This document shows, one piece after another, positions 14,547-26,126 of a DNA stretch of 64,000 bases; position 1 is the stretch's first letter; each line of letters opens with the position of its first letter. This stretch comes from Calorimonas adulescens. Lineage in GTDB: Bacteria > Bacillota > Thermoanaerobacteria > Thermoanaerobacterales > UBA4877. The notes under the pieces were generated by a model. The model was not told where the DNA came from. It saw only the letters and a program-made list of their open reading frames with translations, and did no database searches. A program made the position numbers and the translations under genes. Where the stretch lies: positions 1 to 64,000 of the forward strand of contig NZ_VTPS01000010.1 of the NCBI RefSeq assembly GCF_008274215.1, written 5' to 3'.

Positions 14547-14575
14547 TTATTTGAGAATAAAATTTAATAACAGGC

Positions 14576-14756
14576 AAATACAGGTACCCAATTTTGAAGT
14601 CAAATTGGGTTAAAAGGGAAGCAGGTGAAAATCCTGCACGGTCCCGCCACTGTGATGGTGAGCTTTTTACATTATGCCACTGTCCTTTTACATAAGTGCT
14701 GGATGGGAAGGTGTAAAGAGAGATGAACCTAAGTCAGGAGACCTGCCTGTATTTGT
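14576..14756 (+). ncRNA. Cobalamin (B12) riboswitch ahead of cbiMNQO
   Basis: The closing strands AAATACAGG (14576-14584) and CCTGTATTT (14746-14754) enclose GGGAAGCAGGTGAAAATCC, the CCCGCCACTGTGATGG block, an ATGCCACTG segment and the B12 box AAGTCAGGAGACCTGCC at 14731-14747. A terminator follows at 14817-14857. It should shut off cobalt import when adenosylcobalamin is plentiful. Confidence 0.94.
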
Positions 14757-14816
14757 GACACACTTACTCTACGGTCGATAGAGGGGAGTGCTATAAAGGG
14801 ATAAGTATGTGATTTT

Positions 14817-18670: not shown

Positions 18671-18769
18671 GGAGGAGTAGATGGGTGCTGGTGTACCTCA
18701 TGGTCTTCAAAACCAGTGTGACGCCTTAAAGAGGTGTCGGGTGGATTCGATTCTCAAATACTCCCGCCA
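18671..18769 (+). tRNA. selC: tRNA-Sec (anticodon UCA), possibly decaying
   Basis: This 99-base gene has the unusual length, the long variable arm (GACGCC pairing with GGTGTC) and the anticodon loop CTTCAAA with UCA that define selenocysteine tRNA, and it ends in an encoded CCA preceded by G. Several pairs expected in a working molecule are missing: the acceptor strand GGAGGAGT faces ATACTCCC instead of ACTCCTCC, the T stem GTGGA/CTCAA has two mismatches, and the outermost anticodon-stem pair is A-G. The promoter is intact. With selB truncated nearby, loss of function is likely (inference), although a divergent working tRNA cannot be ruled out. Confidence 0.78.
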
Positions 18770-22163: not shown

Positions 22164-22326
22164 TATATCACCTCAGCATAATTATACAGCAAAATCTAAT
22201 TTTAACGCAATAAATTGAAATATGTACGGTAATGACAGCCTCGATAGGAAGAGTTAAAAAATTTATTTTATTTAGAGGAAATTATTGGTAAATATAGAAT
22301 TATATTCTAAAGAAGGAGGGTCAAAA

Positions 22327-22548
22327 ATGGATAAAAATAACTTGCCTGGTATCTTGAACGAGTTGGGGGAAAAGATAAAAGGCGATAAGATATTATCAGA
22401 GATATATGATAACTACAATTATTTTGCTGAAATAGAGGAATTGGATGATAGGTACAGGTGCGGTTTGAAAATAATTGAAATTTATTTAAGATTAAAGGAT
22501 ATATGTAAAAAATTTAATTTTGATATTGATTTAGGTAACAATATGTGA
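22327..22548 (+). CDS. Hypothetical protein, 73 residues
   Basis: I do not recognise this protein. It is small, soluble-looking and mostly helical, rich in Glu, Lys and Tyr, with one cysteine in RYRCGLKI and one in DICKKF. An AAGGAGGG ribosome site lies six bases before the ATG, so it is likely translated. It sits upstream of the Spo0E-like gene, 45 bases apart, and may share its transcript. No homologous family was apparent. Confidence 0.55.
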   Translation: MDKNNLPGILNELGEKIKGDKILSEIYDNYNYFAEIEELDDRYRCGLKIIEIYLRLKDICKKFNFDIDLGNNM

Positions 22549-22593
22549 TATCATTATTTCCGCACGTATTTACATAAAGAGGAGAAATGATTA

Positions 22594-22770
22594 ATGGAGG
22601 CACTGTCCCTGGAAAGAGAGATTGACAGCTTGAGGGATGAACTCTATTGTATGATTGATGAAAAAGAGGAGCGAAAATCAGAAAGGGTTTTAGAGTGCAG
22701 TAAAAAGCTTGATTATCTTATAGTAAGATATCATAAAGTATTTTCTCAAAGGATATCTGAAGGGGAGTAG
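22594..22770 (+). CDS. Spo0E-like aspartyl-phosphate phosphatase
   Basis: A 58-residue protein: two helices joined by a loop, with the family signature CSKKLDYLIVRYHK (S-x-x-L-D-x-L-I-x-x-Y). Spo0E-type phosphatases remove phosphate from Spo0A and delay sporulation. AGAGGAGA at proper spacing supports the ATG. Its last codons and stop (GGGGAGTAG) form the first strand of the following yybP-ykoY riboswitch, so the coding region and the riboswitch share bases. Confidence 0.83.
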   Translation: MEALSLEREIDSLRDELYCMIDEKEERKSERVLECSKKLDYLIVRYHKVFSQRISEGE

Positions 22771-22840
22771 CTCATTCTGGACTGTCGTCATCACGGCAAT
22801 GCCCGGCAGGACAGCAAGAATTCCTTGGGAGTGAGACCTT
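22757..22840 (+). ncRNA. yybP-ykoY manganese riboswitch
   Basis: The conserved features of this class appear in order: AAGGGGAGTAGC (22760-22771), a GTCGTCATCACGGCAATGCCCGG core (22784-22806, with CGTCATCACGGC and TGCCCGG the recognised parts), CAGCAAGAATTCC, and GAGACCTTT (22833-22841), whose CCTT can pair with the opening AAGG. CTCATTC (22771-22777) can pair with GAGTGAG (22829-22835). The class binds Mn2+ and often controls P-type cation ATPases. The next full gene is such an ATPase, but an insertion-sequence relic now lies between. Confidence 0.85.
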
Positions 22841-22868
22841 TATTTGAATAAAATAAGGGTCTCTTTTT
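22833..22868 (+). terminator. Terminator of the Mn riboswitch
   Basis: GAGACC with TTTATTT pairs with AAATAA and GGTCTC around GAAT, followed by five T. It reuses the 3' strand of the aptamer, as expected for ligand-dependent antitermination. Confidence 0.85.
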
Positions 22869-22875
22869 GTATATT

Positions 22876-22887
22876 TTTAAAACATTA
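22876..22887 (+). repeat. 12-base direct repeat, left copy, flanking the IS relic
   Basis: TTTAAAACATTA here is repeated exactly at 23497-23508, on the other side of the decayed insertion sequence. It looks like a target-site duplication. Confidence 0.6.
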
Positions 22888-23496
22888 AGTAATTGCGAAA
22901 GGAGGTAGGTCAAAAAATTCAGATGAGCCTGAAAATGTCTAAAAGCAACAGAACTTGACTTTTTAAGCTCAAAGTGGATGGAAAGTTTGACTTAATATAT
23001 GCAGGCAGAAAAAAATGGGCGCAGGAAATAAACCCATTGGATATAGGTACCGGGAACCTTTACAAAGCCACAAAAGTCACGAAGTTCCTTTGAGTACTGG
23101 AGAAAAATCAAAAGAAGTCTGTCAGTAGGAATGGAGAAAATCCGCTGAATGAGCAAAGCCCAAAGGAAACCGGATAAAGGATATACACGATTTCTACCAA
23201 TAGAGGAATAAAAGTGATTATAGAAGGAAGACGGAATAAGTTCTTCAAGATCAATGTTTTCTTCAAGAAGTGAAAGGAAGTGATATTTATCATTTCCAAA
23301 AATACTATTACAGTCGGAATAAATGTCTGCAAAGGATAATTGTTTCGGTCTTGTCATAAGTTAATAACTCCTTTCCGAGATGTTGTTTTATTATTGCTCA
23401 TAACTTAATTTTACCACATTTTGGAGAGGAGTTATATATAAAAGAAATAAATAAAAGCCTGTATTTATGCAGGCTACGGCGTTTTGCAAACGCCTA
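22888..23496 (-). mobile_element. Decayed insertion sequence between riboswitch and ATPase gene
   Basis: About 609 bases flanked by the 12-base direct repeats. It contains the N-terminal third of a transposase on the minus strand. The ends show a loose inverted relation (TTGCGAAAGGAGGTA at the left, TTGCAAAACGCCGTA read from the right). Two hairpins lie near the right end (23456-23475 and 23477-23493). An intact element would be more than twice this long, so a large internal deletion has occurred. Confidence 0.68.
22992..23357 (-). pseudogene. Truncated transposase (DUF772-type N-terminus)
   Basis: The first ~100 residues (MTRPKQLSFADIYSDC... to ...RDFCGFVKVP) look like the N-terminal region of a DDE transposase, with the DUF772-like pattern FYNHFYSSIGRNRVYPL followed by QRIFSIPTDRLL. 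After VP the sequence becomes unrelated (GTYIQWVYF...) and stops. The catalytic DDE part is missing. The family could be IS5- or IS1182-like; I cannot decide by eye. Confidence 0.72.
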
Positions 23497-23508
23497 TTTA
23501 AAACATTA
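23497..23508 (+). repeat. 12-base direct repeat, right copy
   Basis: Second exact copy of TTTAAAACATTA, directly followed by TTGAAAGGAG, the ribosome site of the ATPase gene. Confidence 0.6.
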
Positions 23509-23525
23509 TTGAAAGGAGAATAAAA

Positions 23526-26126
23526 ATGGCCAGTTTTTACGCTAAAGATGTTCACGAGGTTCTTAGTGAACTTGAAACAAGTAATACGGGGCTTACGTCA
23601 CTGGAGGCCCAAAAAAGATTAGAGAGATTTGGCTATAATGAGCTTGCAGAGAAAAAAGGGGAAACGATTTTCCAGATGTTTATCAGTGAATTCAAAGACT
23701 TTATGATTATTATCCTTCTGATAGCTGCATTGGTGTCCGTCTTTGTAGGTGAAATTACTGACTCTATAATTATTGTAGCCATAGTGGTATTTAATGCTAT
23801 TCTCAGTGTCATGCAGAAAAATCAGGCTAATAAGGCACTTGAGGCGTTAAAGAAACTTACGAAACCCAATGCGAAGGTAATGAGGGATGGAAATATTCAG
23901 GTATTACCAACAAGGGAACTGGTACCTGGTGATATTGTTATTTTAGAGGCTGGTGACTTTGTGCCTGCAGATGGTAGGCTCATAGAGGCAGTTAATCTTA
24001 AAGTAAATGAGTCTTCACTTACCGGTGAGTCTGTACCTGTGGACAAGGTGGTTGTGCCTTTAGAGTCAGACGATATACCTGTAGGTGATCGGGTCAATAT
24101 GGTATTTACTGGCACTACTGTGGTATATGGAAGGGGTAGAATGGTGGTGGTAAATACTGGAACAAACACAGAAATTGGCAATATAGCCTCCATGATGGAG
24201 GAGGAGAAAATAATTACCCCGCTGCAGGAGAAGCTTGCTGAGCTTGGCAAAACCCTTGGCATTGCAGCGTTGGGAATATGTGCGGTAATATTTTTTATTG
24301 GATATATGAGGGGTACGCCTCTCCTTGAGATGTTCATGACGTCAGTGAGTCTTGCCGTAGCAGCTATTCCAGAAGGGCTACCAGCAATTGTGACCATAAC
24401 GCTGGCTATTGGGGTTCAAAGAATGGTTAAAAGGAATGCAATCATAAGGAAACTCCCTGCCGTGGAGACGTTGGGCAGTGCCAATGTCATATGCTCGGAT
24501 AAGACAGGTACTTTGACTCTAAACCGAATGACGGTTACAAGTATGTATGTGGATAATGAACTGATAGATTTTAATAAGATTGAAAGAAGTGAGAGGGTAA
24601 GTAAGGTTATAGAGATGTCTTCACTCTGCAGTGATGCAAAGTTGGATGAGGAGGGTAAGGGGATAGGGGATCCTACGGAAGTTGCGTTGATACTGGCACT
24701 TAGAAAATTAGGGAGAGAAAAGAACGAACTTGAGTCCGTATATCCGAGGATTGACGAGCTTCCTTTTGATTCAGACAGGAAACTTATGACAACAGTCCAT
24801 GATATGGAGAATGGCTATTTAGTTATTACCAAAGGTGCGTTGGAGAGCGTAATGCCTTTATGTGTATCCATAGATGAAATGGGGAAAATAAGAGATTTGA
24901 CAGTGGATGATAAGCAAAACATAGAAAAAGCCAATGAAGCGATGGCTCAAAATGGTATGAGGGTTTTAGGGTTGGCATATAAGGTACTCGATGGTAAAGA
25001 TTATAATCCTGGAGAGCTTGAAAATAGGTTGATATTTCTAGGGCTTATAGGTATGATAGACCCTCCGAGGCCTGAAGCGAGAGACGCGATAAAAGAGTGT
25101 GACTCTGCTGGTATAACCACTGTGATGATTACAGGAGACCACAGACTTACTGGAGAGGCTATTGCAAGGGAGCTTGGAATTTTGCATGATGGAGAGGAGG
25201 TAGTCACCGGGAAAGAACTTGAGGAAATGGATGATGATGAATTAGCAAGAAGGGTGCGGAAGATAAGGGTGTATGCCAGGGTTTCACCGGAACATAAGGT
25301 AAGAATTGTAAAAGCGTGGCAGAAAAACAATGCTGTTGTTGGTATGACGGGAGATGGTGTAAACGATGCTCCTGCCCTAGCACAGGCAGACATCGGTGCT
25401 GCAATGGGCATTACTGGTACTGAAGTGGCAAAAGAAGCAGCTGACATGGTTTTGACTGATGATAACTTTGCTACAATAGTCGCAGCAGTTGAGGAGGGAA
25501 GGACAATATATTCCAATATACGCAAAGCCATAAGATATCTCCTATCATGTAATATCGGTGAAATACTTACGGTATTTATTGCCAATGTGTTTGGACTTGG
25601 ACAACCACTCTTACCGATTCATCTTTTGTGGATCAACCTTGTGACTGATAGCCTGCCAGCTTTGGGACTTGGGATGGAGCCTCCATCGCCTGACGTTATG
25701 AAGTCCAGGCCGAGATCAAAGGAAGAGAGTATATTTGCCGGGGGTCTTGGTATCCAGATGGTTTTTGAGGGGATTATTATGAGTATTTTAGCAGTCATGG
25801 CCTTTATGATAGGGAGAAGGTATGACATTGAAACAGCCGAGACCATGACTTTTATGACTCTGGTGTTTTCCCAGCTTATCCATTCGTTGAATTCAAGGTC
25901 AAACACGCAATCTATATTCAAAATTGGCCTGACCACTAATAAGTATTTACTATTTGCCATAGTAATAGGAGTTGGTTTGCAGCTTCTTTTGGATACTCAG
26001 CCGCTGAGCAGTATATTTAAGATGTCACCACTTGAACCGGTTCAATGGGTATATGTATTATGTCTCTCTGTGTTGATACTCCTTATGGGAGAGATTGAGA
26101 AGATGATTTTTCGCATTGTATCGTAA
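23526..26126 (+). CDS. P-type cation ATPase, PMCA/SERCA-like (Ca2+/Mn2+)
   Basis: An 866-residue type-II P-type ATPase. It has the cation ATPase N-terminal segment, the TGES motif in SLTGESVPV, the M4 ion-site motif PEGLPAIVTI, the phosphorylated Asp325 in CSDKTGTLT, the KGALE nucleotide site, MITGDH and GDGVNDAPAL. The PEGLP in M4 is typical of Ca2+ pumps, some of which export Mn2+. The upstream yybP-ykoY riboswitch points to manganese export (inference). GAAAGGAG supports the start. The IS relic now separates it from that leader, so it may rely on readthrough or a weak new promoter. Confidence 0.94.
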   Translation: MASFYAKDVHEVLSELETSNTGLTSLEAQKRLERFGYNELAEKKGETIFQMFISEFKDFMIIILLIAALVSVFVGEITDSIIIVAIVVFNAILSVMQKNQANKALEALKKLTKPNAKVMRDGNIQVLPTRELVPGDIVILEAGDFVPADGRLIEAVNLKVNESSLTGESVPVDKVVVPLESDDIPVGDRVNMVFTGTTVVYGRGRMVVVNTGTNTEIGNIASMMEEEKIITPLQEKLAELGKTLGIAALGICAVIFFIGYMRGTPLLEMFMTSVSLAVAAIPEGLPAIVTITLAIGVQRMVKRNAIIRKLPAVETLGSANVICSDKTGTLTLNRMTVTSMYVDNELIDFNKIERSERVSKVIEMSSLCSDAKLDEEGKGIGDPTEVALILALRKLGREKNELESVYPRIDELPFDSDRKLMTTVHDMENGYLVITKGALESVMPLCVSIDEMGKIRDLTVDDKQNIEKANEAMAQNGMRVLGLAYKVLDGKDYNPGELENRLIFLGLIGMIDPPRPEARDAIKECDSAGITTVMITGDHRLTGEAIARELGILHDGEEVVTGKELEEMDDDELARRVRKIRVYARVSPEHKVRIVKAWQKNNAVVGMTGDGVNDAPALAQADIGAAMGITGTEVAKEAADMVLTDDNFATIVAAVEEGRTIYSNIRKAIRYLLSCNIGEILTVFIANVFGLGQPLLPIHLLWINLVTDSLPALGLGMEPPSPDVMKSRPRSKEESIFAGGLGIQMVFEGIIMSILAVMAFMIGRRYDIETAETMTFMTLVFSQLIHSLNSRSNTQSIFKIGLTTNKYLLFAIVIGVGLQLLLDTQPLSSIFKMSPLEPVQWVYVLCLSVLILLMGEIEKMIFRIVS

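Follow-up and report, generated by a model that had tools for sequence, protein, structure and literature searches.

In Calorimonas adulescens, an insertion sequence (IS) separates a Mn riboswitch from the cation-transporting P-type ATPase gene which it would be expected to control. The window analysed here comprises 64,000 nucleotides, positions 1 to 64,000 of contig NZ_VTPS01000010.1 (assembly GCF_008274215.1). The insertion into the riboswitch leader is real and well supported, and is an event of a known kind. Mn control probably persists in series through a leader about 620 nt longer, so that it would be lengthened or weakened rather than cut. The arrangement of riboswitch, repeat, IS and ATPase had been described in an earlier note; sequence, repeat and terminator scans confirm it, and its coordinates are right. 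The features are as follows.

22594..22770, plus strand: Spo0E-like small ORF (Pfam SpoOE-like, E 9e-12; an ORF 79% identical at the protein level, with the same overlap, is present in the closest relative, G001)
22760..22841, plus strand: yybP-ykoY-type Mn aptamer (models R1 and leave-out R2; compensatory changes in P3; not called by RF00080)
22833..22868, plus strand: intrinsic terminator (terminator scan, 13 pairs; fold; conserved in relatives)
22876..22887, plus strand: left copy of the direct repeat TTTAAAACATTA (repeat exact; boundary inferred from other IS copies)
22888..23496, minus strand: internally deleted IS1182-type element (97% identical at both ends to a copy at G000:C9, elsewhere in this genome; DUF772 in the remnant)
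23364..23435, minus strand: inverted repeat within the IS (30-nt arms, 77% complementary)
23497..23508, plus strand: right copy of the direct repeat TTTAAAACATTA
23512..23525, plus strand: original ATPase RBS (AAAGGAG) and spacer (same layout in G001)
23526..26126, plus strand: intact P-type ATPase, 866 aa, PMR1/SERCA-like (Ca2+/Mn2+) (TIGR01522 and Pfam; 78% identical in G001)

The aptamer consists of P1 (AAGG/CCUU), the loop L1 (GGAGUA...GAGACC), P2 (GCUC/GAGU), P3 with its loop L3 (GUCG-UCAUCAC...CGGC), and a short hairpin. In the window, loops L1 and L3 are intact, as are the P1 switch helix and the terminator that overlaps it. A covariance search had been proposed as a check on the assignment, and its outcome depends on the model. 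RF00080 itself fails: in the Rfam search it matches the window leader neither at the gathering score nor at E<=10, and the leaders of five relatives are likewise unmatched at gathering and permissive thresholds. This failure is weak evidence against membership, because every RF00080 match throughout the 61 genomes searched falls under the cut-off. A second covariance model (R2), from which the window and its closest relative were left out, succeeds, finding window positions 22760-22841 with 55.8 bits (E 4e-14). A third (R1) was made from nine distinct aptamers, the window's included; it gives the window aptamer 78.9 bits and re-finds all the RF00080-called loci given, in this and other genomes, with 16-52 bits (the weakest, L078, has 16.5 bits). 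The nine-aptamer alignment has a branched fold of 25 pairs with 97.8% of cells paired; two-sided changes occur at 8 pairs, against 0-2 in slid controls, and P3 contains compensatory changes. Aptamer alignment A1 shows no variation in GGGGAGUA, in GAGACC or in the UCA of L3; the Mn-contacting L3 adenosine was assigned by our own mapping onto published structures.

A DNA search found the leader in 18 of the 61 genomes (this one and 17 related genomes), all belonging to one order. Wherever the upstream sequence was read, the leader directly precedes the orthologous ATPase gene. Given this conserved position, the recovery of called loci by R1 and the leave-out match of R2, the window leader can be classed by sequence as a member of the yybP-ykoY family, in a short Thermoanaerobacterales form which Rfam misses, and it is predicted to bind Mn2+. 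The Rfam Mn model misses the ATPase leaders of this order, and Mn riboswitches are probably under-counted there. Other Rfam matches in the leader region are sub-threshold and probably due to chance; an SSRC10 match overlaps the same leader. Matches to preQ1-II and freshwater-2 at 23441-23528 were rejected, being far under the cut-off and mostly composed of IS-end hairpins plus the RBS.

The terminator has the sequence GAGACCTTTATTTG...AAATAAGGGTCTC-TTTTT, and its 13-pair stem spans 22833-22863. The 3' end of the aptamer (22837-22841) falls within this stem according to both the fold and the scan. The 5' arm of the terminator shares CCTTT with P1, so P1 and the terminator are mutually exclusive. 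An aptamer 3' strand (CCUUU) lying within the terminator 5' arm is also the layout of the published ON-switch, in which the terminator cannot form once Mn2+ has stabilised P1.1 (PMC6754395, PMC11087558).

After the T-run, the order is TTTAAAACATTA, 609 bp of IS sequence, the second TTTAAAACATTA, the RBS, and the ATG at 23526. The two repeats are exact; from the local base composition, 12 identical bases at two given positions would arise by chance with a probability of about 2e-7. The insert joins both ends of an IS of which another copy lies at G000:C9:45562-47129, with 97% identity (about 3% divergence). The window copy has 37 bp which are absent from the C9 copy and is without about 970 bp present there; each copy thus appears to have its own internal deletion. 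The element was previously described as decayed. It is indeed an IS relic, but is better termed internally deleted, with intact ends. These ends, TAAGTAATTGCGAAA and TAGGCGTTTGCAAAA, were recognised by eye as terminal inverted repeats. An ORF at 22992-23357 on the minus strand encodes the remnant N-terminus of the transposase, with a DUF772 domain (Pfam); the C-terminal half of the C9 copy, whose gene is broken, matches the IS1182 transposase model NF033551 (E 5e-12; 45.5 bits against a cut-off of 270). In the inverted repeat at 23364-23435, the region of the transposase RBS pairs with IS sequence upstream of it, which recalls the hairpins that shield the transposase genes of some ISs from external transcription.

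The flanking repeat is 12 bp in the window, 11-12 bp at the C9 copy (flanked by ATTAAAAATAAT) and 12 bp in G001, where a pair of contig ends resembles the opposite sides of a single IS copy flanked by TGTATAATTATA. The aligned IS ends read TAAG.../TAGG.... Since the element seems to start with TA, these bases may belong to the IS end; the target duplication would then be 10-11 bp (TTTAAAACAT in the window), with 12 bp as the maximal repeat. The 12-base target duplication proposed earlier is therefore exact as a repeat, but the duplication proper is 10-12 bp and not firmly 12.

The closest relative, G001 (the MAG Thermoanaerobacteraceae bacterium Yes75-04), contains the same leader with no insert and thus provides an empty site. 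Its gene order is that of the window: an AlaX-like gene, a small ORF, a spo0E-like ORF, the leader, and the ATPase gene. The small ORF (22285-22548 in the window) matches nothing in Pfam; G001 has a similar ORF at the corresponding position (L079 1924-2148). From the end of the aptamer to the ATPase match there are 61 nt in G001 and 684 nt here. The leaders read in other relatives are also close to the ATPase gene, and among the relatives examined the long spacing never occurs without an IS. The exact repeat, the second IS copy and the G001 empty site together support insertion with target duplication. That a PMR1-like P-type ATPase was the ancestral target of the riboswitch is likewise supported, as the leader adjoins its orthologues in relatives. 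The ATPase scores 787.7 bits against TIGR01522, a little under the curated cut-off of 798.3; its reading frame is fully intact, as is its RBS.

A second Mn-type leader in this genome (L006 564-647, G000:C6) is under the Rfam cut-off and is re-found by R1; it lies about 250 nt upstream of a gene for a 103-aa membrane protein. This protein is read as UPF0016/MneA-like from an ELGDKTQ motif seen by eye; NCBIfam gives a weak YtaF match only. The window itself contains two strong cobalamin riboswitches, at 160-331 and 14565-14764 (135.7 and 128.8 bits, Rfam). A tRNA-Sec gene at 18673-18765, over the Rfam cut-off, suggests a selenocysteine system.

The earlier note regarded the riboswitch as cut off from its gene, the latter being either dependent on readthrough across the relic or rewired to a new promoter. 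Of these, readthrough is favoured by the evidence, and a cut or rewired connection is unsupported: the terminator is upstream of the insert, and neither a rightward terminator nor an above-background promoter was found within it. The terminator scan found no rightward intrinsic terminator in the insert; a leftward one is present at 23475-23456. No rightward promoter in the insert exceeds background (best score 7.2, the median best for the window being 8.3), although the models follow E. coli promoters and could overlook a genuine one at the IS end. Upstream of the aptamer, promoter scores reach 11.2 and 10.0. A promoter-like site at 22526-22554 combines TTGATT with a -10-like hexamer; both elements, equally spaced, were recognised by eye in G001 as well. 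At a second promoter-like site (22622-22650) the -10 is not conserved in G001, which counts against the explanation preferred here.

Because the terminator is upstream of the insert, Mn antitermination would still gate any transcripts which enter it. The family of the aptamer, its overlap with the terminator, the insertion, the empty site and the intactness of the gene are all established, and persistence of Mn control through the longer leader is the simplest reading; uncoupling is less probable. The ancestral state would have been a terminating, Mn2+-responsive yybP-ykoY riboswitch directly before the gene for a PMR1-type Mn2+/Ca2+ ATPase. An IS1182-type element would then have inserted just 3' of the terminator, its middle being lost afterwards or already missing. 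RNA polymerase starting from a putative promoter upstream of or inside the spo0E-like gene would meet the aptamer first. Once Mn2+ is bound, P1 would form in place of the terminator and polymerase would read through about 620 nt of untranslated relic, after which translation of the ATPase would begin at its own RBS. Output is probably lower with the insertion, whether by mRNA decay, Rho action, or antisense RNA from the old transposase promoter.

It is unlikely that the ATPase gene is now transcribed from a promoter in, or created by, the right IS end and no longer responds to Mn2+. IS ends often supply outward promoters, and a weak TTTACC-17-TATATA is present at 23410-23438; however, this insert has no rightward site over the ordinary background, and the transposase gene runs to the left and not towards the ATPase. 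Somewhat less likely again is that readthrough RNA is lost to Rho termination or antisense, with Mn efflux being carried instead by the UPF0016/MneA-like gene behind the second Mn-type leader. Rho is encoded in the genome, and a long untranslated leader could thus be terminated before the ATPase; the relic has no rightward ORF of at least 50 aa, and the second leader would provide the alternative outlet. On the other hand, the ATPase frame is fully intact, although a recent insertion might not yet have led to visible decay. That the insert is an artefact of assembling a repeat is most improbable, for although this is a draft genome of 54 contigs and related IS copies are found at contig ends in G001, the flanking repeat is exact, the sequence is contiguous on both sides, and the insert differs in internal structure from the only other copy, with the divergence noted above.

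The spo0E-like ORF upstream ends within aptamer loop L1, where its stop codon (22768-22770) lies. The same is true of the ORF in G001, the other genome of this family (L079 2189-2368); in Thermoanaerobacterium genomes, the spo0E-like ORF ends about 20 nt before the aptamer. The ORF is probably co-transcribed with the leader. Ribosomes can repress terminators close behind a stop codon (PMC4824070), and on this basis translation may influence the Mn switch. A more speculative and doubtful extension is that the leader has two inputs: ribosomes reaching the end of the spo0E-like gene would compete both with the folding aptamer and with the terminator, Mn efflux would be tied to the translation of a gene for sporulation control, and the IS would separate this device from the pump, leaving mainly a Mn-sensitive spo0E 3' end.

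The locus amounts to a natural experiment: one genome has riboswitch and target separated by about 620 nt, and its closest relative has the uninterrupted arrangement. How well a riboswitch of the terminator type works across an untranslated insert could be tested directly here. No direct precedent for an IS between a riboswitch and its gene was found in the literature covered, which was partial and so does not establish absence.

Compared with known systems, the leader shares with the yybP-ykoY riboswitches of RF00080 the L1 sequences GGGGAGUA and GAGACC, a 7-nt L3 within GUCG...CGGC, the overlap of P1 with the terminator, and a position upstream of Mn-related transporters. It differs in being a short form which RF00080 does not call, and in having a 620-nt insertion between terminator and target. 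The element resembles the IS1182 family in its DUF772 N-terminal domain, the putative IS1182-type transposase C-terminus of the C9 sister copy, and its short inverted ends; the window copy, however, is a deletion derivative of about 610 bp and cannot encode a whole transposase. The same riboswitch class is known before cation P-type ATPases in Lactococcus lactis (yoaB, PMC9190785) and Clostridioides difficile (CD2503, PMC11477304); no IS is described in those pairs. Bordetella pertussis BP3410 (PMC8546581) is another natural lesion in a Mn riboswitch-exporter unit. There, the exporter is non-functional and the lesion is a small duplication in its coding region, whereas in the present locus the insertion interrupts the leader and leaves the gene intact.
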